A DNA stretch of 64,000 nt from the NCBI RefSeq assembly GCF_000959525.1, contig NZ_CP009830.1, positions 62,001 through 126,000 on the forward strand, in the 5' to 3' direction. Each line of letters begins with the position of its first letter. The first letter of the stretch is position 1. Origin of the DNA: Burkholderia multivorans ATCC BAA-247. Its GTDB lineage: Bacteria; Pseudomonadota; Gammaproteobacteria; Burkholderiales; Burkholderiaceae. The notes beneath the pieces were generated by a model that was given only the letters and a program-made list of their open reading frames with translations, had not been told where the DNA came from and searched no databases. Below, one piece after another: positions 4,695 through 19,523 of this stretch. Position numbers and translations under genes: made by a program.

Positions 4695-4909
4695 GCCGGA
4701 TCTCCTTGTCGATTGTCGAGGGTGAATCGAGCGGCGCCGGCGCGCTCGCGACGGATGTCGGTTGCGCACGACGGCGCCGATGCAACGTTAGCCGATCGCC
4801 GCGGAATTGTCCTTGTGCATTCGTGAATTCCGGCGATAACGGCCCGCATACGTGCCGGCCGCGATCGAAACGCGCAATGCGAGACTGCCGTACGACCGCA
4901 CCGCGCCGC

Positions 4910-5644
4910 TCAGAGCCAGCGCGATACGATCGGCAGCAGGATCGGCACGACGAACGCGGTCAGCACGCCATTGAGTCCCATCCCGAGCCCGGCGAACGCA
5001 CCGGCTTCCTCGCTGACCTGAAACGCGCGCGCGGTGCCGATGCCATGCGAGGCGACGCCGAGCGCGAAGCCGCGCACCGCGGGCTCGTCGATGCGCAGCG
5101 CGTTCAGGATGCTGCGCGCGCAGACGGCGCCGAAGATCCCGGTCGAAATGACGAGCACGGCCGTCAGCGACGGAATGCCGCCGATCTCCGCGGCGACCGC
5201 CATCGCGATCGGCGTCGTCGCGGACTTCGGCGCAAGCGACGCAATCGTCTGATGAGACGCGCCGAGCAACGCGGCGATGCCGACCGCCGACACGATCGCC
5301 GTCAGCGAACCGGCGACGAGGCCGATCAGCAGCGGCAACGCCGCGCGGCGCAGCTTCGCCCATTGGCGATACAGCGGCAGCGCGAGCGCGACGGTCGCGG
5401 GGCCGAGCAGGAAGTGAACGAACTGCGCCCCTTCGAAATACGTCGGGTAGGGCGTGCGCGTCAGCGTCAGCAGCGCGACGATCAGCGCGACCGCGATCAG
5501 CACCGGGTTCGCGAGCGGATTGAAGCGGGCACGCGCATAGACGGCCTGCGCGACGAGATACGCGATCAGCGTGATCGTGAGTCCGAGCAGCGGACTCGCG
5601 GCGAGGTAGACCCAGATCGCGCCGAGCTTCGGGAAGGCCGTCAT
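4910..5644 (-). CDS. lrgB: LrgB/CidB-family membrane protein
   Basis: 244 residues with about seven hydrophobic segments and the LrgB signature around TTPIAMAVAAEIGGIPSLTA and GVASHGIGTARAF. The start codon overlaps the lrgA stop by 4 bp (ATGA), so translation is coupled. LrgA/LrgB pairs have been linked to murein hydrolase control and, in other bacteria, to glycolate or pyruvate transport; which applies here is not visible. Confidence 0.92.
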   Translation of the reverse strand: MTAFPKLGAIWVYLAASPLLGLTITLIAYLVAQAVYARARFNPLANPVLIAVALIVALLTLTRTPYPTYFEGAQFVHFLLGPATVALALPLYRQWAKLRRAALPLLIGLVAGSLTAIVSAVGIAALLGASHQTIASLAPKSATTPIAMAVAAEIGGIPSLTAVLVISTGIFGAVCARSILNALRIDEPAVRGFALGVASHGIGTARAFQVSEEAGAFAGLGMGLNGVLTAFVVPILLPIVSRWL

Positions 5645-6012
5645 CGCGTGCCCTCCGCGGTGCCGGTCGCGCGTTGCTGGCGCCGCAGCAGCGCGCGCGT
5701 GACGAGTGCGGTAACGGCGATCGCGAGCGTCGTGCTGACGACGAGCGCGACGACGACCGCGACCGCATCGCCGCGCACGCGGCCCGCCGACACCATGATC
5801 CCGACGCCGGCCGGCACGAACAGCAGCGACAGATGGCGCAGCAGTTCGAGCGCGGTCGGCTCGATCGCGTCGGCGACCTGCGGCCGCAGCATCGCGAAAC
5901 CGAACAACAGCAGCATGCCGATCACCGGGCCGGGCACCGGCAAACCGAACAGATAGGACACCCCTTCCCCGAGACACTGGAAGGTCAGCAATACCGCGAA
6001 AGCCTGCAACAT
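5641..6012 (-). CDS. lrgA: LrgA/CidA-family membrane protein
   Basis: 123 residues with four transmembrane segments, the holin-like LrgA fold (MLQAFAVLLTFQCLGEGVSYL at the N-terminus; PGPVIGMLLLFG). It is the upstream gene of a two-gene lrgAB operon, with a 4-bp overlap into lrgB. A GGAGAAT site precedes the start. No LytSR-type or LysR regulator is adjacent; the upstream DNA is the decayed ring-cleavage cluster. Confidence 0.9.
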   Translation of the reverse strand: MLQAFAVLLTFQCLGEGVSYLFGLPVPGPVIGMLLLFGFAMLRPQVADAIEPTALELLRHLSLLFVPAGVGIMVSAGRVRGDAVAVVVALVVSTTLAIAVTALVTRALLRRQQRATGTAEGTR

Positions 6013-6109
6013 GAAGCGATTCTCCTGACGACGGCGCGCGCCGCGGCGGCCGGCACGCGCCGGCCGCTACCGGCCTTGGCGCGCGGTAAGCGCGATCGTA
6101 CCAAGTTCG

Positions 6110-6310
6110 CGAAACCTGCAGCGTCGTTCGGCCGGCGTCAGTTCGAGCTCGCGCGCGAAGCCGTGCAGATGCCGTACCAGTGCGCTCATGATCGTTTTGA
6201 GCCGCCCGTCCTCGCAGGCAGCGGACGTCACGCGCACCGTGTCGGCGATCGCGCTCGGCGAGTCGTCGGCGCGTGCGCCGGAACTCGGCTCGATCTCGTC
6301 TCTTGATACG
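6110..6310 (-). pseudogene. Remnant of an intradiol (hydroxyquinol-type) dioxygenase, N-terminus only
   Basis: Reading the minus strand, an open stretch contains RLKTIMSALVRHLHGFARE followed by LELTPAE, which matches residues about 27-52 of the intact dioxygenase at 14492-15364 (RLRMLMQSLVRHLHAFVRE, TELTEAE). The match stops abruptly and the catalytic domain with the Tyr/His iron ligands is absent. It lies just downstream of a maleylacetate reductase and a broken aldehyde dehydrogenase in the same order as the intact hap cluster, which supports decay of a duplicated or displaced cluster. The gap from 6013 to 6352 otherwise holds no gene. Confidence 0.7.
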
Positions 6311-6352
6311 CGTGACGCGCACGCGGCAAAGGGCTCGCCGGCGTCGCGCCGC

Positions 6353-7411
6353 TCACGCCGGCCGGCGGCCCGCATAGGCGTCTTCGAGCAGCGCGCGCAG
6401 CGATGCGCGCTCGGGCGGGCGCGGGTTCCAGTACGGGTTGCGCAACGCGAGATCGAGCACGCGTTCGATGTCGGCCTCCTCCATGCCGATGTCCTTCAGC
6501 GCGACCGGCACGCCGCTGGCACGGGCGAGATCGAAAACGCCGCGTGCCGCGTCGTCGGCGCCGAGTGCGGCAGCGATGCGGCGCATCGCGGCCGGCGCGG
6601 CGTCGCGGTTGTAAGCGAGCGCATGCGGCAGCACGATCGTATGCGTTTCCGCGTGCGGCAGGTTCAGCGTGCCGCCGAGCGTATGGCACAGCTTGTGATG
6701 CAGCGCCATCCCGACGCTGCCGAGCACGGCACCGCACAGCCAGGCACCGTACAGACAGTCGGCGCGCGCGTCGGCGTCGTGCGCGTCGTGCACGATGCGC
6801 GGCAGGCCGCCGGCCAACGCACGTATGCCTTCCTCCGCCATCAGGCTCGCGACCGGGTTCGCGTCGGGCGCGTACAGCCCTTCGGCCGCGTGCGCGATCG
6901 CGTTGATCCCGCTCGTCACCGAGAGCGCCACCGGCAGCGACAGCGTCAGGTCCGGATCGTAGATCACCGCCTTCGGCAGCACGCGCAGGTCGCGGCCCGT
7001 CTTCTTCACCCCGCCTTCGGTGAGCCCGTAGATCGGCGTCATTTCGGAGCCGGCATAGGTCGTCGGCACCGCGACGATCGGCAGTCCCGAATCGAGCGCG
7101 ATCGCCTTACCGAGGCCCGTCGTCGAGCCGCCGCCGATCGCGATCGCGCAGTCCGCATCGACCTGCGCGGCAAATGCGCGGGCCGCGCGCGCCGTCTCGA
7201 TCGGCACGTGCATGACCGCTTCGGCAAACACGCCGGCGGCGCGCGCGGCGAGCCGATGCGCGAGCGCTTCGGCCTGCGCGCGCTGCGGCGGCGTCGAGAG
7301 CACGATCGCGCGCGTGGCGCCAAGGCGCTCGATTTCCTGCGGCAACTGCGCGAGACTGCCCGCGCCGAATACGACGCGCGACGGCAGGCCGTTGTAGACG
7401 AACGAATGCAT
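6353..7411 (-). CDS. Maleylacetate reductase (iron-alcohol-dehydrogenase family), second copy
   Basis: 352 residues from the ATG at 7411; the same frame stays open far upstream through pseudogene DNA, so the long frame is not the gene. It carries the NAD-binding GGGST motif (AIAIGGGSTTGLGKAIAL) and the metal region HHKLCHTLGGT. Maleylacetate reductase converts maleylacetate to 3-oxoadipate at the end of hydroquinone, resorcinol and chlorophenol degradation. It is a clear paralogue of the hapF product at 15393-16460. Both neighbours (dioxygenase downstream, dehydrogenase upstream) are remnants, so this gene may be a survivor with no dedicated operon; reading frame and motifs look intact. Confidence 0.88.
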   Translation of the reverse strand: MHSFVYNGLPSRVVFGAGSLAQLPQEIERLGATRAIVLSTPPQRAQAEALAHRLAARAAGVFAEAVMHVPIETARAARAFAAQVDADCAIAIGGGSTTGLGKAIALDSGLPIVAVPTTYAGSEMTPIYGLTEGGVKKTGRDLRVLPKAVIYDPDLTLSLPVALSVTSGINAIAHAAEGLYAPDANPVASLMAEEGIRALAGGLPRIVHDAHDADARADCLYGAWLCGAVLGSVGMALHHKLCHTLGGTLNLPHAETHTIVLPHALAYNRDAAPAAMRRIAAALGADDAARGVFDLARASGVPVALKDIGMEEADIERVLDLALRNPYWNPRPPERASLRALLEDAYAGRRPA

Positions 7412-7434
7412 CGCGATGCGCTCCGTGTAAAGGT

Positions 7435-7812
7435 TCAACGCGGATAGTACGGCGGAATCTGCGCATCGACGTCGAGCCGCACCGATTTCGCATGGATGTA
7501 CTCGTGCATCGCGTCGAAGCTCTTTGCGCACCCGTCGTCGCTCGCGCAGACGCTGCCGAGCGGCAAGCCGGGGCTCACGCGCTTGTAGCCATCCGCACCG
7601 CCTCTCGGATCCGCGTGCGAAGCCGTGCGCACGCTGTCGGTCGCGCGTCCAGAGGCCGGCGCCGAGCCCGCACGCGGCGCGGGCCGCGATCGCGAGCGCC
7701 TCGTCGCCGGTGCGAAACGTCGTGACCGTCACGAACGGGCCGAACCCTGCGTGCTGCGCGACGCGGTCGCCCGGCTTCGCATGCACGCAAAAGCGGCGGG
7801 CGTAGGCCCGCC
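7435..7812 (-). pseudogene. Aldehyde dehydrogenase C-terminal remnant with frameshift
   Basis: Two minus-strand frames together spell the last quarter of an aldehyde dehydrogenase. About 7640-7812 reads GDRVAQHAGFGPFVTVTTF...GLGAGLWTRD, matching ADRIAQEEVFGPFVTVLRF...GLGSGLWTND of the intact HapE. About 7435-7590 in another frame reads GYKRVSPGLPLG...FDAMHEYIHAKSVRLDVD, matching CYKRVNPGSPFG...FEAMHDYTEARSVWVNVD. The nucleotide-binding domain, catalytic Cys and general base Glu are missing, and at least one frameshift lies near 7620. It is upstream of the second maleylacetate reductase exactly as hapE is upstream of hapF. Confidence 0.85.
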
Positions 7813-7854
7813 GCGTCGATCTCCGCGCGCACCTCGCGGCGCGCGCATGCGCCG

Positions 7855-8889
7855 TTACTTCAGACGCGTCGCGATTTCGTTCGCCATCGCCTTCAGTGCG
7901 GCCTGCGTCGGCGCATCGGCGGCCAATGCGTTGAGCAGCCCGAAATCGTGGATCGTGCCGTCGTAACGCGTCGTCGTCGCTTCGACGCCGGCCGCGTCGA
8001 GCTTGCGGCCGTATGCTTCGCCTTCGTCGCGCAGCACGTCGAACTGCGCGACCTGGATCAGCGCGGGCGGCAGCCCCTTCAGTTGCGCGACGCTCGCGCG
8101 CAGCGGCGACGCATAGATCTCGTTGCGCTGCGCTTCGTTCTTCGTGTACGCGTCCCAGAACCACTTCATCATCGGGCGCGTCAGGAAGTGGCCCTGCTGA
8201 TACGCGCGATACGAACCCGTGTCGAAGTCGTGATCGGTGACGGGCCACAGCAAACCCTGGAAGCGAATCGCCGGCCCGCCCTTGTCCTTCGCCATCAGCG
8301 CGACGACCGCCGCCATGTTGCCGCCGACGCTATTGCCGACCACCGCGAGACGGCTGCCGTCGACGCCGATTTCGGCACCGTGTGCGGCGACCCACTTCGT
8401 TGCGGCATAGGCCTGATTGATCGCGACCGGATAACGCGCTTCCGGCGACGGCGTGTAGTTGACGAACACGGCCACCGCACCCGATTGCACGACGAGATCG
8501 CGCACGAGCCGCTCGTGCGTCGGGAAATCGCCGAGCACCCAGCCGCCGCCGTGGAAGAACATGAACACGGGCGGCGTGCCCGTCGCGTGTTGCGGACGCA
8601 CGATCGTGATCGGCACGGACAGCCCGTCCTGCTCGATCGTGCGGTTCGACACGTCGATCCCCGACAGGTCGACCTTCACGCCGTTCTGTGCGTCGACGAG
8701 CACCTGCCGCGCCTTCGCGGGGCTCAGCGTTTCGAGGCCCGGGCCCTTCTGCGCGTTCAACGCGGCGAGAAACGCGCTCGTCGTCGCGTCGGGGCGCACG
8801 GTGTCGGCGCCTGCCGCGAACGCGGCCGGAACGGCGGAAGACAATGCCGCGACGGCGGCGACGATCAGCAGCGGCTTGACGATCTTCAT
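7855..8889 (-). CDS. Exported alpha/beta hydrolase (HSL-like)
   Basis: 344 residues with a Sec signal peptide (residues 1 to about 25, ending AAFAA). The oxyanion motif HGGGW (in FMFFHGGGWVLGD) and nucleophile elbow GNSVGG mark the hormone-sensitive-lipase/acetyl-esterase group; an Asp (FDVLRDEGEAY) and His (TIHDFGLL) complete a plausible triad. Substrate unknown. It starts 59 bp after the ohr stop and probably forms an operon with ohr under the TetR regulator. Confidence 0.88.
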   Translation of the reverse strand: MKIVKPLLIVAAVAALSSAVPAAFAAGADTVRPDATTSAFLAALNAQKGPGLETLSPAKARQVLVDAQNGVKVDLSGIDVSNRTIEQDGLSVPITIVRPQHATGTPPVFMFFHGGGWVLGDFPTHERLVRDLVVQSGAVAVFVNYTPSPEARYPVAINQAYAATKWVAAHGAEIGVDGSRLAVVGNSVGGNMAAVVALMAKDKGGPAIRFQGLLWPVTDHDFDTGSYRAYQQGHFLTRPMMKWFWDAYTKNEAQRNEIYASPLRASVAQLKGLPPALIQVAQFDVLRDEGEAYGRKLDAAGVEATTTRYDGTIHDFGLLNALAADAPTQAALKAMANEIATRLK

Positions 8890-8948
8890 GATGAGACTCC
8901 TGAATCGGGTAATGGATGGGCGATGAACGGGTCGGTTGCCATGTACGG

Positions 8949-9374
8949 TCAGACGAGCGTCAGCGTGACGTCGATGTTGCCGCGCGTCGCGTTCGAGTAC
9001 GGGCAGACGACATGCGCGCGCTCGATCAGCGTCTGCGCGACCTCGCGCTCGAGGCCCGGCAGCGAGATCTTCAGTTCGACTTCGATGCCGAAGCCCTTCG
9101 GGATCGCGCCGATGCCGACGCTGCCTTCGATCGACGCGTCGGCGGGCATCGCGATCTTGTCGCGCGCCGCGACGAACTTCATCGCGCCGATGAAGCACGC
9201 GCTGTAGCCGGCCGCGAACAGCTGCTCGGGATTCGCGCCTGCACCGCCCGCGCCGCCGAGTTCGCGCGGCGTCGTGAGCTTCAGGTCCAGATTGCTTTCG
9301 GGCACCGTCGCACGGCCGTCGCGGCCGCCGGTGGCTTTTGCGTGAGCGCGGTACAGCACTTTTTCGATCGACAT
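8949..9374 (-). CDS. ohr: Organic hydroperoxide resistance protein Ohr (OsmC superfamily)
   Basis: 141 residues, full Ohr length. The two reactive cysteines are Cys60 ([10 protein letters not shown]) and Cys124 ([14 protein letters not shown]); Ohr enzymes use them with lipoylated proteins to reduce organic hydroperoxides. AAAAGGAG 7 bp before the ATG at 9374 decides the start over a longer frame to 9407. Ohr is usually controlled by the MarR-type OhrR; here a TetR gene lies upstream and its operator repeats flank the ohr promoter. Confidence 0.95.
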
Positions 9375-9463
9375 GACAGGCTCCTTTTCAACGAGTGAGT
9401 GGAACAACCTTCCAACCGGGGTCGCTCGCAGGCGGCATCGTCGTCGCCGGCTTCGCGTTTGTT

Positions 9464-9479
9464 TATCTACTCATAGATA
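9464..9479. promoter_or_regulatory. TetR operator upstream of ohr
   Basis: TATCTA-CTCA-TAGATA, a perfect 6-bp inverted repeat, about 90 bp upstream of the ohr start codon. The identical 16 bp occurs at 10186-10201 in front of the tetR gene, which strongly suggests one regulator binds both. Confidence 0.8.
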
Positions 9480-9498
9480 GATAAACATCCCCAAAAAA

Positions 9499-9520
9499 TG
9501 CAGATGCCCAGGCATCTGCG
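9499..9520 (-). terminator. Possible second hairpin with T-run between tetR and ohr
   Basis: CAGATGCC-CA-GGCATCTG (9501-9518) is a perfect 8-bp stem; on the minus strand it is followed by CATTTTTT. It could stop read-through from tetR, or be an attenuator ahead of ohr. It lies between two copies of the TetR-type repeat. Confidence 0.45.
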
Positions 9521-10452: not shown

Positions 10453-12306
10453 ATGTATTCGTGGTTTGAACGACGGCTGCCGACCTTCCCGCTCGAAGAG
10501 CCCGCGACGCCGCCGAACGGCTTCTTCTCGTTCGTCTGGGCCTGCACGCAGGGCGCGCGCGGCTGGATCCTGCTGATCGCGCTGACCTCGGCGGCGCTCG
10601 CCGCCTACGAAGCCGCGCTGTTTGCGATGATGGGCCGCGTGGTCGACTGGCTGTCGTCGGCGACGCCGGCGACGTTCGGCGAGCTTCACTTCGGCACGCT
10701 GGCCGGCTTCGCGGCGATCCTCGCAGGCAGCGTCGTGCTGATCGCGCTGCACACGATGGTCAAGCATCAGGTGCTCGCGATCAATTTCCCGATGCGGCTG
10801 CGCTGGCTGTTTCATCGACTGATGCTCGAACAGAGCCTGTCGTTCTATGCGAACGAATTCGCGGGCCGCGTGACGACGAAGATCATGCAGACTGCGCTCG
10901 CCGTGCGCGACGCGCTGTTCATGTCGGTCGACGTCGTGATCGGCGTGGCTGCGTACCTGCTCGGCATCCTCGCGCTTGCCGCGAGCTTCGACTGGCGACT
11001 GATGATTCCGCTCGCGCTGTGGGCGCTCGGCTACGGCGCCGCGTGCGCGTATTTCGTGCCGCGTCTCGGCCGCGTCGGCAGCGAGCAGGCCGATGCGCGC
11101 GCGCTGATGACGGGCCGCATTACCGACGCGTATTCGAACATCACGACCGTCAAGCTGTTCTCGCATACGCGCCGCGAGGCGGATCACGCGCGGCGCGCGA
11201 TGGAAGCGTTCAAGGTCACCGGCGATGCGCAGATGCGGCTCGTCAGTGCGTTCGAGATCGTCAATCATCTGCTGTCGACGGCGCTGCTGGTCGGCTCGAC
11301 GGGCCTCGCGGTCGCGCTGTGGATGCACGGCGAAGCGAGCGCAGGCGTCGTCGCCGCCGTGATTGCGATGGCGCTGCGGCTGTCGAGCTACTCGCACTGG
11401 ATCATGTGGGAGATGACCGAGCTGTTCGAGAACGTCGGCACGATCCAGGACGGCATCACGACGCTCACGCGCGTGCGCAGCGTCGTCGACGCGCGCGATG
11501 CGCGGCAGCTCGTCGTGTCGCGCGGCGAGATCGTGTTCGACAACGTACGGTTCGCGCATGACGACAACGAGAAGCCGGTGTTCGACGGGCTGAACCTCAC
11601 GATTCGTCCGGGCGAGCGGATCGGCCTGATCGGCCGCTCGGGCGCCGGCAAGTCGACGCTCGTGAACCTGCTGCTGCGCTTCTACGACGTGGACGGCGGC
11701 GCGATCCGGATCGACGGGCAGGACATCGCGCACGTCACGCAGGACAGCCTGCGCGCGGCCATTGGCATGGTCACGCAGGATACGTCGCTGCTGCATCGGA
11801 CGATGCGCGAGAACATCCTGTACGGCCGCCCGGATGCGACCGAACGGGAGATGCGCGCCGCCGCCGAGCGTGCGGAAGCGTCGGAATTCATCGAGCGGCT
11901 GCGCGACCGGCATGGGCGCTCGGGCTATGACGTCGAGGTCGGCGAGCGCGGCGTGAAGCTGTCGGGCGGCCAGCGGCAGCGCGTCGCGATCGCGCGCGTG
12001 ATGCTCAAGGACGCGCCGATTCTCGTGCTCGACGAAGCGACGAGCGCGCTCGACTCCGAGGTCGAAGTCGCGATCCAGCGCAGCCTCGACAGTCTGATGA
12101 CGGGCAAGACGGTGATCGCGATCGCGCATCGGCTCTCGACGATCGCGGCGATGGACCGGCTGATCGTGCTCGACGAAGGACGAATCGTCGAGGAAGGCAC
12201 GCATCAGCAATTGCTGCAGGCAGGCGGGATTTACGCGGCGCTGTGGGCCCATCAGAGCGGCGGGTTTCTCGGCGAGACGGCGGACGAGGCGGCACCCGCG
12301 CAGTGA
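10453..12306 (+). CDS. ABC exporter, fused permease and ATPase (MsbA/MDR type)
   Basis: 617 residues. An N-terminal six-helix membrane domain spans about residues 30-330; the nucleotide-binding domain follows with Walker A GRSGAGKST at 394-402, signature LSGGQRQR at about 503, Walker B ending Asp527-Glu528 (LVLDEATSALD) and the H-loop in IAHRLST. It should act as a homodimer exporting a lipophilic substrate or drug from the inner membrane. An AGGAGAAT site precedes the ATG. The upstream gap holds a TetR operator nearer the divergent tetR gene. A decayed near-copy of its 3' end lies at 22384-22580. Confidence 0.93.
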   Translation: MYSWFERRLPTFPLEEPATPPNGFFSFVWACTQGARGWILLIALTSAALAAYEAALFAMMGRVVDWLSSATPATFGELHFGTLAGFAAILAGSVVLIALHTMVKHQVLAINFPMRLRWLFHRLMLEQSLSFYANEFAGRVTTKIMQTALAVRDALFMSVDVVIGVAAYLLGILALAASFDWRLMIPLALWALGYGAACAYFVPRLGRVGSEQADARALMTGRITDAYSNITTVKLFSHTRREADHARRAMEAFKVTGDAQMRLVSAFEIVNHLLSTALLVGSTGLAVALWMHGEASAGVVAAVIAMALRLSSYSHWIMWEMTELFENVGTIQDGITTLTRVRSVVDARDARQLVVSRGEIVFDNVRFAHDDNEKPVFDGLNLTIRPGERIGLIGRSGAGKSTLVNLLLRFYDVDGGAIRIDGQDIAHVTQDSLRAAIGMVTQDTSLLHRTMRENILYGRPDATEREMRAAAERAEASEFIERLRDRHGRSGYDVEVGERGVKLSGGQRQRVAIARVMLKDAPILVLDEATSALDSEVEVAIQRSLDSLMTGKTVIAIAHRLSTIAAMDRLIVLDEGRIVEEGTHQQLLQAGGIYAALWAHQSGGFLGETADEAAPAQ

Positions 12307-13614: not shown

Positions 13615-13836
13615 CGTGTCTCCGTCTTTTTTGGAAATTCGCGAGCGGGCGTCCGCTACGTCACCGGCGCTCGCCCGATGCTTTTTTTGAAACAACACCT
13701 TCCCTGCCCCGGATCGACGACGATTCAGGGCGGCACATCCGACGTTGCTTAGTGATACTGATTCAACAGAACGAACGAAATATCACGCGCGCGTCGCTGG
13801 CTTCATCGCGTCGACGCGATTACGCGAACCCTCGAT

Positions 13837-14172
13837 TCAAGCGTCTCGGCAAATCACCCACGCCGCCGGATCGACTTCAACCGGCACGGCTTCCAGCCCC
13901 GCACCGGCGCACGGCCCGTCGATACACATCCCGTCGTCGAACCGGAACAGCGCGCTGTGATGCGCACACATCAGCACCTGCGACCGATAGCACGAAACGT
14001 TGCCCGGTACGAAGTCGAGCGGAACCGAGAAATGCGGGCAGCGGTTCACGTACGCCCACACCTGCGCCCCGCGCCGCACGACGATCACCGACCGGCCGAT
14101 GCACGCTTCATCGACGACCCGCGCCCCGCCGTCGGGCACGTCGGAGACGCGGCAGAGTTGCGTCGCGTTCAT
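13837..14172 (-). CDS. Rieske-type [2Fe-2S] ferredoxin (HapI-like position)
   Basis: 111 residues. The Rieske motifs are complete: Cys45-x-His47 (RCPHFS) and Cys69-x2-His72 (MCAHHS). The small size indicates a soluble ferredoxin that feeds electrons to an oxygenase or reactivates a ring-cleavage enzyme. It is the last gene of the hap operon. Ferredoxins in such operons can re-reduce an oxidised dioxygenase iron, which would suit HapCD; that is inference. No Rieske oxygenase alpha subunit is present in the window. Confidence 0.85.
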   Translation of the reverse strand: MNATQLCRVSDVPDGGARVVDEACIGRSVIVVRRGAQVWAYVNRCPHFSVPLDFVPGNVSCYRSQVLMCAHHSALFRFDDGMCIDGPCAGAGLEAVPVEVDPAAWVICRDA

Positions 14173-14174
14173 GC

Positions 14175-14486
14175 TCAGACTCTCCGCTCCGGGTTGCCGA
14201 GGCTCCAGTCCCACGGCCGCACCTCCACCCGCGAAAACAGCCCTTCCTTCACATAGGGATCGTTGCCGACGAACCGCATCACCGCATCGATATCATCGGC
14301 TTCGATCACAAGCAGCGTGCCGTTCATCGCATCGCCCTGCGGATCGAGCGTCGGGCCGCCGAGCCGCACGTACACGCCATGCTGAGCCGCCGAGCGCAGA
14401 TAGCTGCGATGCGTGGACCGCACGCGATCGCGCACGTCGCGCATCCCCGGCTGGTCCGTCGCGAACACCGCAAAGAATCGAGCCAT
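14175..14486 (-). CDS. YciI-family protein
   Basis: 103 residues, single YciI/muconolactone-isomerase-like ferredoxin fold, with the typical segments HRSYLRSA, GGPTLDPQG and NDPYVKEGLF. YciI-like domains often carry a His-Asp pair and appear in aromatic operons, with isomerase or dehydrochlorinase-like roles proposed; function here is unknown. It sits between the hydroxyquinol dioxygenase (5 bp) and the Rieske ferredoxin (2 bp), so it is clearly co-transcribed with them. Confidence 0.82.
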   Translation of the reverse strand: MARFFAVFATDQPGMRDVRDRVRSTHRSYLRSAAQHGVYVRLGGPTLDPQGDAMNGTLLVIEADDIDAVMRFVGNDPYVKEGLFSRVEVRPWDWSLGNPERRV

Positions 14487-14491
14487 ATCGG

Positions 14492-15364
14492 TCAGCTCCG
14501 GTCGAGCACGAAGTCGTACGTCGCTTCGCGGTACGCACCGTTGATGCCGAACCGGCGCGCCAGCTCATCGCCCGCTTCGCGCCGGCGATAGGCGACCATC
14601 AGCGACGGCTTCACGCCAAACACGGCATCCGACTGCAGGTACGCGTCTTCCTCGTCGAACAGATGCGTGACGAGCCTGCGATAGCCGGGCGCATCGATCA
14701 TGAAGTGCAGGTGTGCGGGGCGCCACGGATGCCGCCCGGTCGCGTCGAGCATCTTGCCGACCGGGCCGTCGGTCGGAATCGGATAGCTGACCGGCAGAAT
14801 CGTCGTGATCGCGTAACGCCCCTGCGCGTCGGTCCGGTAGCGGCCTCGCAAGTTGCCGTGCGGCTGCGCCGGGTCCTGTCCGGAATACATGCCGTTGTCG
14901 GCGGTCTGCCAGACGTCGAGCACGGCATCCGGCACCGGCGCACCGTCGGTGGTCAGCACACGGCCATGCACGAGCGCCGGCGTGCCGGGCGTGAGCGCCA
15001 TGTTCTCGCCATACGCGCGATCGGGCATCCCTTCGATGTAGAACGGTCCAAACACCGTCGTTTCCGTCGCACCGGTCGCCAAGCGATGGTTGATCGCGTC
15101 GACCAGCATCGACACACCGAGCGTGTCGGACAGCAGGATGAACTCCTGCCGCACGACGTCGTCGCACATCTGCCCGGTTTCGGTCAGGAAGCGAATCGCG
15201 GCCATCCACTCGGCTTCGGTCAGCTCGGTTTCGCGGACGAACGCATGCAGGTGCCGCACGAGGCTCTGCATCAGCATGCGCAAGCGCGGGTTCGGCGCGC
15301 CGTCGAAGCTGGCGACGACCTGCTCGGTCAACCGCGTATCGCCGTCGTCATGATCATTCGTCAC
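14492..15364 (-). CDS. hapG: Hydroxyquinol 1,2-dioxygenase (intradiol)
   Basis: 290 residues. It has the N-terminal dimerisation domain (LVRHLHAFVRETELTEAEW) and a catalytic domain with the Fe(III) ligands Tyr160 (NGMY), Tyr194 (PVSYPIP), His218 and His220 (RPAHLHF). The enzyme opens hydroxyquinol (1,2,4-trihydroxybenzene) to maleylacetate, the substrate of the adjacent reductase. The start is a GTG at 15364 with AAAGGAGA 6 bp upstream; no ATG fits the N-terminus. Catechol 1,2-dioxygenase activity is an alternative but the maleylacetate reductase context favours hydroxyquinol. Confidence 0.88.
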   Translation of the reverse strand: MTNDHDDGDTRLTEQVVASFDGAPNPRLRMLMQSLVRHLHAFVRETELTEAEWMAAIRFLTETGQMCDDVVRQEFILLSDTLGVSMLVDAINHRLATGATETTVFGPFYIEGMPDRAYGENMALTPGTPALVHGRVLTTDGAPVPDAVLDVWQTADNGMYSGQDPAQPHGNLRGRYRTDAQGRYAITTILPVSYPIPTDGPVGKMLDATGRHPWRPAHLHFMIDAPGYRRLVTHLFDEEDAYLQSDAVFGVKPSLMVAYRRREAGDELARRFGINGAYREATYDFVLDRS

Positions 15365-15392
15365 GTTCGTCTCCTTTGACGCGGACCGCCGC

Positions 15393-16460
15393 TCACCGCG
15401 GCGCGCGCCCTTCCCATGCATGCTGAAGCAACTCGCGGATCGCGACACATTCGATCGGCCGCGGGTTCGCATACGGATTCCGGCATGCGAGGTCGGCCGC
15501 CTCGTCAAGGCCCGCCTCCGGCATCCCGAGGTCGCCAAGCGCCGCCTGCAGCCCGAGCTGCCGGTTCAGTTCGAACAATAGCGTGCCGGCGTCGGCGGCG
15601 TCGCTACCGCCCAGCGCCCGCGCGACACGCCGCAGCGCGTCGGGCGCCGCCGCATGGTTGTAGTGCGCGGTATGCGGCAACATCGCGGCATGCGTCTGCG
15701 CGTGCGGCAGGTTGAAGGTGCCGCCGAGCGTATGACAGAGCTTGTGATGCAACGCCATGCCGACCGCGCCCAGGCACGTGCCGGCAAGCCAGGCGCCATA
15801 CAGTGCGCGGCTGCGCATCTCGCGATCGTCGGGCGCGCGAACGATCGCCGGCAATGATTCGCCGAGCGCACGTATCGATTCCTCCGCCATCAGACTGATG
15901 ACCGGGTTCGCATCGTCGGCATAGAGCGCCTCGACCGCGTGCGCCATCGCGTTGACGCCGGACGCCGCCGAGATCCCCGGCGGCAACGACAGCGTCAGCG
16001 ACGGGTCGTAAAGCACCGTGCGCGGCAGCACGCGCGGGTCGCGCCCGGTGCGCTTGAGGCGGCCTTCCGTCAGCCCGAAGATCGGCGTCATCTCCGAGCC
16101 CGCGTAGGTCGTCGGCACGGCGAGGATCGGCAGCGACGATTCGAGTGCGATCGCCTTGCCGAGCCCGATGGTCGAACCGCCGCCGATCGCGACGCAGCAG
16201 TCCGCGCCGAGTTCGACGGCCATCTCGCATGCCGCGCGTGCCACTTCGACCGGCACGTGCATCACGGCCTGCGCGCACACGCCGGCCGCGCGCTCGCCCA
16301 GTACGCGGCTCACGCGCTCCGCGAGCGGCTGCTGCTCGGGCGTCGACAGGATCAGCGCCCGCTGCACGCCGAGTGCATTCAGCTCGTCCGGCAGCCGTTC
16401 GAGCGCGCCCCATTCGAAGACGACGCGCGAAGGCGTTCCCTGGTAGACGAAGCGCTCCAT
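15393..16460 (-). CDS. hapF: Maleylacetate reductase
   Basis: 355 residues of the iron-alcohol-dehydrogenase family, NAD(P)H-binding GGGST (CVAIGGGSTIGLGKAIAL) and metal-site region HHKLCHTLGGT. It reduces maleylacetate to 3-oxoadipate, feeding the tricarboxylic acid cycle. It receives maleylacetate from both HapE (hydroquinone branch) and HapG (hydroxyquinol branch). It starts 7 bp after the hapE stop codon and is 28 bp from hapG. A paralogue at 6353-7411 sits in a decayed version of this same gene order. Confidence 0.93.
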   Translation of the reverse strand: MERFVYQGTPSRVVFEWGALERLPDELNALGVQRALILSTPEQQPLAERVSRVLGERAAGVCAQAVMHVPVEVARAACEMAVELGADCCVAIGGGSTIGLGKAIALESSLPILAVPTTYAGSEMTPIFGLTEGRLKRTGRDPRVLPRTVLYDPSLTLSLPPGISAASGVNAMAHAVEALYADDANPVISLMAEESIRALGESLPAIVRAPDDREMRSRALYGAWLAGTCLGAVGMALHHKLCHTLGGTFNLPHAQTHAAMLPHTAHYNHAAAPDALRRVARALGGSDAADAGTLLFELNRQLGLQAALGDLGMPEAGLDEAADLACRNPYANPRPIECVAIRELLQHAWEGRAPR

Positions 16461-16467
16461 CGCGACC

Positions 16468-17934
16468 TCAACGCTTGAAGTGCGGCGGCACGTTGCCGTC
16501 GACGTTGACCCACACCGAGCGCGCTTCCGTGTAGTCGTGCATCGCCTCGAAGCCCATCTCGCGGCCGTAGCCCGACTTGCCGATGCCGCCGAACGGGCTG
16601 CCCGGGTTGACGCGCTTGTAGCAGTTGATCCAGCACATCCCGGCGTCGATCTTCGATGCCATCCGGTGCGCGCGGGACAGATCGTTGGTCCACAAACCGC
16701 TGCCGAGCCCGTATTCGGTCGCGTTCGCAATCGACAGCGCTTCCTCGTCGCTGCCGAAGCGCAGCACCGTGACGAACGGACCGAACACTTCCTCCTGCGC
16801 GATGCGATCGGCTGCGCTCTTCGCTTCGATGACGGTCGGACGCACGTAATAACCGTCGGCGAGTGCGGCATCCTGCGGCGCGCTGCCGCCGGCGAGCACG
16901 CGGCCGCCCTGCTCGCGCGCGACGTCGACGAACGACAGCACGCGATCGAGATGCTGCTTCGACGTCAGCGGACCCATCTCGGTGTCCGGGTCCAGCGGAT
17001 TGCCGATGCGGATCGACGAAGCCAGCGACACGAAGCGCTCGAGGAACGCGTCTGCGATACGCTCGTGCAGGATCAGACGCGAACCTGCGATGCAAGCCTG
17101 CCCCTGGTTGTGGAAGATCGCCCACGCGGCGCCGTTGATCGCGGCGTCGAGGTTCGCATCGTCGAATACGATGTTCGCGCCCTTGCCGCCCAGCTCCAGC
17201 TGCAAGCGCTTCAGGTTGCCCTGCGATGCGTCGACGATCCGGCGGCCCGTCGCGGTCGAACCGGTGAACGCGATCTTGCCGACCCCGGGGTGTTCGGCGA
17301 GCCGCTGGCCGGCGGTGTGTCCATAGCCGGGCACGATATTGACGACGCCGGCCGGAAATCCGACCTCGGCCATCAGCTCGACGATCCGCAGCGTCGACAG
17401 CGGCGTGATCTCCGACGGTTTCAGCACGACCGTGTTGCCGGCGGCCAGCGCCGGGCCCATCTTCCAGCTCGTGAACATCAGCGGGAAATTCCACGGCACG
17501 ATCTGCCCGACTACGCCGATCGGCGCGCGCTGCACATAGTTGAGGAAGCCCGGTTCGACCGGAATCACCGAGCCTTGCAGCTTGTCGGCCATCCCGCCGA
17601 AGTAGCGAAAGCACGCTGCCGTGCGCGGCACGTCGAGCGCCCGGGAATCGCGGATCGGGTGTCCGGTATCCAGCGATTCGAGCTGGGCGAGTTCCTCGGC
17701 ATTCGCCTCGATCGCATCCGCCAGACGCAGCAGCAGCCGGCCGCGCTCGGCCGCCGCCAACGCCGACCATTTCGGAAACGCGCGCGTCGCGGCTTCGACC
17801 GCCGCGTCCACGTCCGCGGCGGTGGCGGCGGCGATTTTCGCGATCAACGAGCCGTCGTGCGGATTGAGCACGTCGATCGTGCCGCGGTCGACGGCGTCGA
17901 CGAAGCGCCCGTCGATGAAGAGTTGGGTTTGCAT
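16468..17934 (-). CDS. hapE: 4-Hydroxymuconic semialdehyde dehydrogenase (aldehyde dehydrogenase family)
   Basis: 488 residues, full length. Visible active-site residues: Asn149 (VPWNFP), Glu247 (LELGGKGA), and nucleophile Cys281 (GQACIAGS); the Rossmann motif is FTGSTATG at 223-230. In the hydroquinone pathway this enzyme oxidises 4-hydroxymuconic semialdehyde, the HapCD product, to maleylacetate with NAD(P)+. The assignment rests on its place between hapD (32 bp) and hapF (7 bp). A frameshifted C-terminal relic of a homologue lies at 7435-7812. Confidence 0.92.
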   Translation of the reverse strand: MQTQLFIDGRFVDAVDRGTIDVLNPHDGSLIAKIAAATAADVDAAVEAATRAFPKWSALAAAERGRLLLRLADAIEANAEELAQLESLDTGHPIRDSRALDVPRTAACFRYFGGMADKLQGSVIPVEPGFLNYVQRAPIGVVGQIVPWNFPLMFTSWKMGPALAAGNTVVLKPSEITPLSTLRIVELMAEVGFPAGVVNIVPGYGHTAGQRLAEHPGVGKIAFTGSTATGRRIVDASQGNLKRLQLELGGKGANIVFDDANLDAAINGAAWAIFHNQGQACIAGSRLILHERIADAFLERFVSLASSIRIGNPLDPDTEMGPLTSKQHLDRVLSFVDVAREQGGRVLAGGSAPQDAALADGYYVRPTVIEAKSAADRIAQEEVFGPFVTVLRFGSDEEALSIANATEYGLGSGLWTNDLSRAHRMASKIDAGMCWINCYKRVNPGSPFGGIGKSGYGREMGFEAMHDYTEARSVWVNVDGNVPPHFKR

Positions 17935-17966
17935 GAATCGTCCTCGATTGGTTGCGCGAGCGCGGC

Positions 17967-18986
17967 TTAGAACTCGATCGGATACGGCGCCAGCTCGCCG
18001 CTTTCGTATCGCTGCGGCAGGTCCGGCGTTGCGTTCTCCCAGACCAGCAGCATCGAGCGCTTCGTCGAGTAGCCCTGGTGCCGGATGTCGGCCGGCATTG
18101 CGCAGATGTCGCCGGCGCGCATCGTGATCCGCGCACGCGGCGCACCGGTGTTCTTGTCGCCGATGTCCCATACGATTTCGTCCGACAGCTGCAGGAACCA
18201 TTCGACCCGGTCGTTACCATGGAACACCGGCAGGATGTATTCCTCCGTCGTCGGGCAGAACAGGCTGCGCCCGCACACGGATGTCACGGACGGATTCCAC
18301 GTCACGTCGGAGCGCGACAGGTACTTGAACAGGTTGAACGCGTGCAGCTCCCCTTCGAATCCGGGCTCCACGTGCACCTCCGGCTCGTCCTGATCGACGT
18401 CGAGAAACGCGCGGTTGACCGGCAGCGCGTCGCGCAGCGGCGAATCGCCTTCGAGGCCCGGCATGCGGCGCGTCGCGATACGCGTGCGCTCGATCGCCGA
18501 ATCGTTTTCACCGTGTTTGCGGCCGAATGCGCTGCCCGTCTCCTGTGGCGCCGCGAACGGATCGAAGCCTTCGTTGGTCCAGTCGTGCAGCATCGCCTTG
18601 AACGTCGCCATGACCGTCGGCGTCTCGAACGTCTCGGTGTAGTCGACACCGGCTTCCTTCAGGATGCCGTTGAACGTTCCCGCATAGACGTCGACCTTGC
18701 CGTAGTGATTGCGCGTGCCGAACACGTGATCGAAATTCACCCAGCCGTAGAAGAAGCCCCACGCGACGTCGCGCATCATCGCGCGCAGGAACGCGTCGGC
18801 GGGTATCGCATGCGTGCGGGTCTGGCCTCTCGCGGGCCAGCTGATCTTCACGAAGTACTCGTCGCGCTGGAACGCGAACTCGCCGAGCTGGAAGCGGCGG
18901 TAACCGGTGACGGCATCGGCTAGCGTGACCTGCACCAGATCGGCGGCAAAGCCTGCGGAAAGATCGAGGGTCTCGAGCGTGGCCAT
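17967..18986 (-). CDS. hapD: Hydroquinone 1,2-dioxygenase, large subunit
   Basis: 339 residues (about 38 kDa), the size of the large subunit of the two-component hydroquinone dioxygenases HapCD/PnpCD. The Fe(II) ligands known for PnpD, His-Asn-Glu-His, are found here at His256, Asn258, Glu262 (FHGNDRVEWF) and His303 (DIRHQGYS). The cupin-like fold and non-heme Fe(II) chemistry open hydroquinone between C1 and C2 to give 4-hydroxymuconic semialdehyde. It lies 42 bp after the small-subunit gene. The ligand set and the neighbouring pathway genes make this assignment firm. Confidence 0.93.
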   Translation of the reverse strand: MATLETLDLSAGFAADLVQVTLADAVTGYRRFQLGEFAFQRDEYFVKISWPARGQTRTHAIPADAFLRAMMRDVAWGFFYGWVNFDHVFGTRNHYGKVDVYAGTFNGILKEAGVDYTETFETPTVMATFKAMLHDWTNEGFDPFAAPQETGSAFGRKHGENDSAIERTRIATRRMPGLEGDSPLRDALPVNRAFLDVDQDEPEVHVEPGFEGELHAFNLFKYLSRSDVTWNPSVTSVCGRSLFCPTTEEYILPVFHGNDRVEWFLQLSDEIVWDIGDKNTGAPRARITMRAGDICAMPADIRHQGYSTKRSMLLVWENATPDLPQRYESGELAPYPIEF

Positions 18987-19028
18987 GAGATGTCTCCAGG
19001 AATAGTTGAATGGTTTCGAGCGGGCGGA

Positions 19029-19523
19029 TCAGTGCACGCAGATCTCGGCCCACTTCTCGACGGACAGCTCGCCGAGCACGGTCTGCACGAGCGCGACGCC
19101 GGGCTTGCTCGCGATGAACCGATACGCGCAGCCCGCCGGCAGCAATGCCTGATGCCCCTTGCGCAGCACCACGTGGCCCATCTCGCGGCCCGCCGGCTCG
19201 ACGCCGGCGCTCACGGTGCCGCGGCCCGTGGTGGGCGGGCTGTCGAGCTTGATGAAGTCGATGCGGACTTCGCCGTCCATCTGGATCGCGAACTCGTCGT
19301 GCGCGCAAGCAAACCACGGCGACTCGCCCTCGGTCCGCAGCACCTCGATCACGTATTCGAGGTTCTTGCCGGCGACCACTTTCTCGTAGGGCGCCGACTT
19401 CGATGCGATGTCGAAGATGTTCGAAAACGCGTAGTGCTTCGCGCTGCCGCTGGTGATTTCGATCTCGCCGCGCGTGTAGCTGTCGAGCGAACCAAAAACG
19501 GTGTGACGTGCCGTGTCGGTCAT
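19029..19523 (-). CDS. hapC: Hydroquinone 1,2-dioxygenase, small subunit
   Basis: 164 residues (about 18 kDa), matching the small subunit of HapCD/PnpCD heterotetramers. It has a cupin-like beta-rich sequence (KHYAFSNIFDIASKSAPYEK; HVVLRKGHQALLPAGCAYRF) without the metal ligands, which are in HapD. CTCAGGAG 6 bp upstream of the ATG at 19523 fixes the start. It is the first gene of the hap operon; a candidate LysR box at 19610-19626 lies upstream, beside the end of the LysR gene. Confidence 0.9.
   Translation of the reverse strand: MTDTARHTVFGSLDSYTRGEIEITSGSAKHYAFSNIFDIASKSAPYEKVVAGKNLEYVIEVLRTEGESPWFACAHDEFAIQMDGEVRIDFIKLDSPPTTGRGTVSAGVEPAGREMGHVVLRKGHQALLPAGCAYRFIASKPGVALVQTVLGELSVEKWAEICVH

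Follow-up and report, generated by a model that had tools for sequence, protein, structure and literature searches.

A probable remnant of a second hap-type ring-cleavage cluster, with a maleylacetate reductase gene under purifying selection, in Burkholderia multivorans

According to the passages of PMC3727088 that name it, hapCDEFGHIAB of Pseudomonas fluorescens is a cluster for hydroxyacetophenone degradation. The order dehydrogenase, reductase, intradiol dioxygenase recurs at the locus described here and the families match by Pfam; unlike the P. fluorescens cluster, this locus keeps only the reductase, the other two of the three genes being reduced to debris, and the remainder of the cluster was not found there. 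We take hapF and hapG of P. fluorescens to encode the reductase and the intradiol dioxygenase, respectively. The reduction of maleylacetate to 3-oxoadipate is the last step of this branch. A second counterpart is found on plasmid pNK83 of Caballeronia sp. NK8 (NZ_AP024327.1, 16237-21464), where C-D-E-F-G and a Rieske protein gene are contiguous, the dioxygenase gene follows the reductase gene directly, as in B. multivorans, and the reductase is 77% identical to that of our locus, here termed MAR2. The NK8 genes differ from ours in being all annotated whole, with a 4-base overlap between those for the reductase and the dioxygenase. The closest reductases, with 86-87% amino acid identity to MAR2, are encoded in clusters of what we call lineage 2 in genomes G016 and G047. 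The G016 cluster lies upstream of lrgAB, as does our locus; in both clusters, unlike at our locus, transporter genes come after the reductase.

The window, the whole stretch of 64,000 nucleotides analysed, is part of a contig of 550,289 bases (C1) within the 6.32-Mb genome of B. multivorans ATCC BAA-247. Positions 6000-7860 are letter-identical to NZ_CP020399.1, the 550,288-base replicon of B. multivorans FDAARGOS_246, which is recorded as a plasmid; replicons of this type are called the third replicon here, a name of our own. On the minus strand tblastn and Pfam place an aldehyde dehydrogenase (ALDH) relic, MAR2 and a dioxygenase stub in the order E-F-G (Table 1). The same window carries an intact cluster, for the genes of which we assume the names hapC-G by similarity and from general knowledge. 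Inside this intact cluster, a gene at 14175-14486 that is flanked by hapG and the gene for the Rieske protein encodes a YciI-family protein (PF03795); neither of the two further clusters compared by annotation has one. The hairpin at the right-hand edge of the relic block is the one site found by the scan, against 1.0 expected in shuffles, and its support comes from the similar hairpin with a run of T that stands at the empty sites of relatives. At the other edge, similarity to the relatives' gaps starts at 6104.

Table 1. Features of the relic locus and of the intact cluster (window positions)
Feature	Position	Strand	Basis
lrgB	4910..5644	-	annotation
lrgA (CidA/LrgA family), left flanking gene	5641..6012	-	Pfam LrgA 4.1e-26
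lrgA-upstream region common to relatives without the block, left-hand edge	6013..6104	-	comparison with relatives' gaps
Intradiol dioxygenase (hapG-type) N-terminal stub, ~55 residues	6103..6267	-	tblastn, Pfam
MAR2, intact maleylacetate reductase (iron-type alcohol dehydrogenase family), 352 aa	6353..7411	-	Pfam, structure alignments, omega
MAR2 leader, conserved (end of ALDH relic and spacer)	7412..7471	-	1/60 differences
ALDH (hapE-type) C-terminal relic, ~last 126 residues, two frames meeting near 7586-7588	7438..7804	-	tblastn, Pfam
Terminator-like hairpin following the upstream alpha/beta-hydrolase gene, block edge on the right	7793..7814	-	hairpin scan, empty sites
Alpha/beta hydrolase, right flanking gene	7855..8889	-	Pfam Abhydrolase_3 5.3e-72
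Intact hap cluster, other lineage	14492..19523	-	annotation in NZ_CP020399.1, coordinates shifted by 8001
hapG	14492-15364	-	annotation
hapF	15393-16460	-	annotation
hapE	16468-17934	-	annotation
hapD	17967-18986	-	annotation
hapC	19029-19523	-	annotation

When the products of the intact cluster are compared with positions 4700-9500 by tblastn, HapE residues 363-436 match 7586-7804 and residues 439-488 match 7438-7587 in a different frame (joint E 7e-24), and HapG residues 10-64 match 6103-6267 (E 2e-8). Taken separately, 7586-7804 is recognized by Pfam as Aldedh (1.6e-10) and 6103-6321 as Dioxygenase_N (6.7e-8), while the 50-residue piece 7438-7587 alone has no Pfam match at E 0.001. The dehydrogenase-like sequence extends to about 7804 and the dioxygenase-like sequence to about 6103, and no similarity of the stub beyond about 55 residues was found. 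An earlier note, made from the letters of this DNA, had described a frameshifted C-terminal dehydrogenase, an intact reductase and an N-terminal dioxygenase stub, all of which these searches bear out. The flanking pieces are truncated and frameshifted homologous coding sequences with neutral-like divergence, the marks of pseudogenes in a decayed operon remnant. With E and G fragmentary there is no intact hap-type hydroquinone/hydroxyquinol cluster at the relic, and in window positions 1-22000 matches to C and D lie solely within the other hap cluster. RefSeq calls genes in the debris, a 102-aa 'dioxygenase' (WP_006411105.1; NZ_CP020399.1 37277-37585, window 6067-6375) and a 47-aa 'betaine-aldehyde dehydrogenase' (WP_226823244.1; NZ_CP020399.1 36074-36217, window 7435-7578), and we flag both as likely pseudogene fragments.

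Is the relic a decayed duplicate of the hapE-hapF-hapG genes of the window itself? The earlier note, which spoke of a decayed twin, was right about the minus-strand E-F-G order of the relic and the position of the hap cluster. Order and strand are the same in both, and 6347-7769 shares 69% DNA identity with the intact hap cluster of this replicon. The relics indeed align to the HapE and HapG products above chance, yet each piece finds its best match in another lineage. By tblastn the ALDH pieces are 63-64% identical to the G047 dehydrogenase, as opposed to 46% to HapE, and the stub reaches 67% identity with the G047 dioxygenase (49 residues) but 40% with HapG (55 residues). In one blastp ranking HapE comes last of 17 intact homologues for both ALDH pieces; for the stub the G047 dioxygenase comes first and HapG 11th of 14, with ten dioxygenases scoring above it and three from the other lineage below.

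A reductase tree was built from 92 sequences, comprising 79 of 80 loci (L106 was dropped by the length filter) and 13 others. MAR2 joins the reductases of G016 and G047 (support 100/99) inside a clade of 19 Caballeronia, Paraburkholderia and Burkholderia rows (100/99), whereas six HapF rows form a separate clade (100/100). Against the identities to G016 and G047 given above, MAR2 is only 62% identical to HapF, and its lineage occurs in only four of the 65 genomes searched (identity at least 85%; all others at most 70%). Judged by these sequence comparisons the relic is a member of a second, divergent hap-type lineage. The tree refutes a duplicate of the window's own genes, barring gene conversion of each of the three pieces, and we regard that origin as hardly credible. 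The earlier note had allowed for a duplicated or a horizontally gained cluster; with duplication set aside, what is left is a cluster that is divergent and has had its own separate history. It may have been inherited from an early Burkholderia ancestor or gained laterally.

Whole clusters of this kind exist elsewhere. Caballeronia sp. NK8, C. fortuita and C. hypogeia have the order C-D-E-F-G-Rieske, as do, with spacers, P. terrae and B. peredens; in G047 and seven Caballeronia/Paraburkholderia-type loci, C-D-E-F is followed by about 5 kb and then by G-Rieske. Contiguous E-F-G as in the relic is a property of NK8, C. fortuita and C. hypogeia, with a spacer in P. terrae, and this exact order is absent in G016 and G047, where the block of transporter genes stands behind F. 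Pfam identifies the products of the five genes that follow the G016 reductase gene as one binding protein, a pair of ABC ATPases and a pair of permeases, of the branched-chain amino acid type; the genes at this position in G047 resemble these by look, Pfam having been run on those of G016. No G homologue was found in the 17-kb G016 stretch L070, and a 41% homologue is present in that genome some 5 kb past lrgB. The G047 query ORF 13826-15397 is probably in the wrong frame; its matches, up to E 2e-7, were taken as compositional noise and left unused.

The 30 best matches to the locus among the 65 genomes are two relic bearers and 28 relatives (L011-L038), and in 22 of the 28 both flanking genes lie within the stretch. 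The distance from flank to flank is 228-601 bases in 21 of these relatives and 1343 in one, compared with 1842 and 1855 in the relic bearers. Searches of the 22 gaps with tblastn, blastn and DNA profiles gave no convincing trace of E, F or G: the best tblastn match has E 0.018 (reductase, L037), the best blastn matches (E 0.004) cover 44 bases of MAR2 in L037 and 17 bases of the stub in L020, and the best DNA-profile match has E 0.11 (reductase, L019). The remaining blastn matches are to the shared lrgA-upstream and hairpin regions. With nhmmer, 38 bases in G013 (L020) match the stub at E 0.39; this match was discarded, as 11 of 400 first-order Markov controls reach it (31 of 400 with the full-length profile).

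The gap between lrgA and the hydrolase gene holds other cargo in four of the remaining six relatives (G043, G019, G018 and G056; the six also include G026 and G057, which have no assignment in the cargo count), and likewise in G011 and G005. A 6-kb block with sensor kinases is present in G043, G019, G011 and G018, and blocks of 25-30 kb with kynureninase and a DmpG-type aldolase were identified by Pfam in G018 and by similar ORFs in G056 and G005. No tRNA gene was detected in the nine loci scanned. G029 carries a single alpha/beta hydrolase there. At 89% identity this protein was considered as a survivor of the G016 cluster, a candidate we dropped since homologues with E <=1e-110 occur in 49 of the 65 genomes, one of them 90% identical and located elsewhere.

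These empty sites bear on how much of a cluster was ever present. Only a 1.7-kb fragment, with the end of E, the whole of F and the start of G, might have been inserted by illegitimate recombination: both ends stop inside genes, between the hydrolase hairpin and the lrgA-upstream region, the edges are alike in all three relic sequences, and both the confinement of the C and D homologues and the relatives without the block would fit such an event. On the other hand the G016 cluster, oriented like the relic, stands upstream of lrgAB at a distance of about 17 kb, and the regulator gene of the G047 cluster is about 3.3 kb from an exporter gene, the counterpart of which occupies 10453-12306 in the window. 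Clusters near the same neighbours favour a resident cluster that was later lost or eroded, an argument to which we give moderate weight, and a fragment insertion is in our view possible but rather unlikely. In G047 itself the exporter gene (L071:60-1711) breaks off after about residue 317 and its remainder matches contig C199; the ORF at L071 60-746 is an IS605 OrfB-type transposase by Pfam.

The explanation we prefer, and consider quite probable, is that 6103-7804 is the remnant of a second, divergent hap-type cluster in which MAR2 has been kept working by purifying selection. We infer that the whole cluster was once present at this place. A hydroquinone/hydroxyquinol ring-cleavage cluster of the hapC-D-E-F-G type would have lain between the alpha/beta-hydrolase gene and lrgAB; the dehydrogenase and dioxygenase genes would then have been truncated and left to decay at about the synonymous rate, with MAR2 between them remaining a working enzyme. 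The latter would be a second isozyme in addition to HapF and would reduce maleylacetate to 3-oxoadipate, perhaps retained for added capacity or for other substituted maleylacetates, and may be transcribed from the leader within the dead dehydrogenase gene.

The relic is available in three sequences, those of the window, of B. multivorans 2023CK-01339 (NZ_CP143553.1) and of B. pseudomultivorans LMG 26883 (G028), the nearest other species that carries the block. Selection was assessed by pairwise codon maximum likelihood (GY94-type model, F3x4, own script). Between the window and B. pseudomultivorans MAR2 has an omega of 0.052 (dN 0.008, dS 0.157; likelihood ratio 61.7 against omega 1), with 27 synonymous and seven nonsynonymous codon differences and with 3, 4 and 27 changes at the first, second and third codon positions. 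For 12 other genes in the same species pair omega ranges from 0.007 to 0.114, the highest value being that of hapF. When the differences are polarised by G016 and G047, one branch has 11 synonymous and two nonsynonymous changes and the other nine and three, with seven and two unpolarised, so both branches are constrained. The two synonymous and two nonsynonymous differences within B. multivorans alone (likelihood ratio 2.0) provide no power.

The flanks behave differently. In the same comparison 34 of 1059 bases differ in MAR2 as opposed to 59 of 313 in the ALDH part and 30 of 223 in the stub zone, and there are six gap events in the two relics together and none in MAR2 (P 8e-6; P 0.14 if the other B. 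multivorans strain is used). Flank divergence is 16.6%, which is near the dS of MAR2 and above that of three nearby intergenic stretches (8-11%). By this measure the ALDH and dioxygenase remnants appear to decay at about the synonymous rate. Constraint extends to the leader, where a single base of the 60 differs from B. pseudomultivorans (Fisher test against the remaining ALDH relic, P 2e-4; other strain pairs, P 0.002 and 0.02). The erosion on both sides that the earlier note described is evident in lesions that differ among the three related sequences and in the divergence of about 17% between the two species, and its suggestion that the reductase is still selected agrees with the omega value. 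Neither of the outcomes it had named as adverse, chance-level similarity of the flanking pieces or different intact genes in the sister flanks, was encountered.

Could MAR2 nevertheless be a functionless pseudogene that has not yet decayed? It is the single gene of a broken operon, HapF provides a second reductase, and a consensus scan for a sigma-70-like promoter found none, with 0.1 expected. Set against this are the low omega with constraint in both lineages, 1059 bases free of gaps and the conserved leader, which support purifying selection on MAR2 and make a pseudogene very improbable. The B. multivorans case is an ordinary evolutionary event, one more instance of a kind already known, but its internal control is unusually clean: 1.7 kb of one replicon holds both the survivor and the debris, the latter serving as a built-in neutral control. 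It offers a compact case in which one gene of a decayed pathway cluster selectively survives.

MAR2 has both domains of the iron-type alcohol dehydrogenase family, Fe-ADH (PF00465, residues 10-153, 1.2e-27) and ADH_Fe_C (PF25137, residues 165-346, 3.3e-44), which span the full-length protein of 352 residues. Residues 3-351 align with 3jzd (E 1.3e-151), which is filed as an iron-containing alcohol dehydrogenase, and MAR2 is alike over almost its whole length to the solved structures 3hl0 and 3w5s, both named maleylacetate reductase. No NCBIfam family scored above its cut-off for MAR2. In the reductase tree MAR2 groups with enzymes encoded in ring-cleavage clusters, many beside hapC-D-E or an intradiol dioxygenase. 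To have a second reductase is common: at least two matches with E 1e-60 or better are present in 27 of the 65 genomes, that of the window included. Most likely MAR2 works as a second maleylacetate reductase alongside HapF; the flux that it would serve is conjectural. There is a small chance that it has been re-used outside the old pathway, for another upstream route or another carbonyl substrate, with a new promoter arisen inside the dead dehydrogenase gene, in which case the relic would illustrate a catabolic enzyme cut free of its operon and put to another use. The passages of PMC2842291, a paper that holds the terms 'maleylacetate reductase' and 'Burkholderia multivorans', concern matter other than this locus.

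The debris also varies within the species. Between the two B. multivorans strains MAR2 differs at four of 1059 positions and the ALDH relic at 37 of 372. ALDH relic positions 7472-7787 differ from L160 at 36 of 313 positions, with 14 gap bases in addition and nearly identical flanks, so that two strongly different haplotypes exist within B. multivorans. All three relic copies depart at 47 of the 325 sites that are alike in three intact homologues, which is consistent with decay that started before the copies split, although these departures could partly predate the death of the relic. Further departures are shared by 2023CK-01339 and B. pseudomultivorans at 11 sites, by the two B. multivorans at nine, and by the window and B. 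pseudomultivorans at two. The simplest reading of the haplotypes, although not proven, is recombination among decayed copies.

The relic shared by the two species may have travelled with the replicon, and we give about even chances to its having come laterally in this way and passed between B. multivorans and B. pseudomultivorans, a proposal that concerns the route only and is compatible with the cluster remnant under selection that we prefer. The reductase lineage is, as noted, confined to four genomes. MAR2 and part of the relic are 82-83% identical in DNA to G016 and G047 and other genes 81-89%; divergence of the same order as in other genes argues against a recent import from these two. 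For B. ubonensis, passages of PMC5614643 report that this replicon shows no lateral transfer within the species. In the comparison of window 2800-52000 with G028:C4, B. multivorans and B. pseudomultivorans share 96-97% identity along 12 kb of the third replicon, compared with 84-88% for the main matches of G013 and G029 on the replicon. Two chromosomal stretches of the two species are 85-91% and 84-93% identical, about as close as G029, and one further stretch (L230) has scattered, uninformative matches of 70-76%; that one chromosomal block also reaches 93% weighs against the replicon route. In an rpoB tree of 48 genomes, a single-gene tree and weak as such, B. multivorans and G013 form one pair and B. 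pseudomultivorans and G029 another (support 100 in each case); neither G013 nor G029 has the relic. The contrast suggests that B. multivorans and B. pseudomultivorans have exchanged their third replicons, in whole or in large part.
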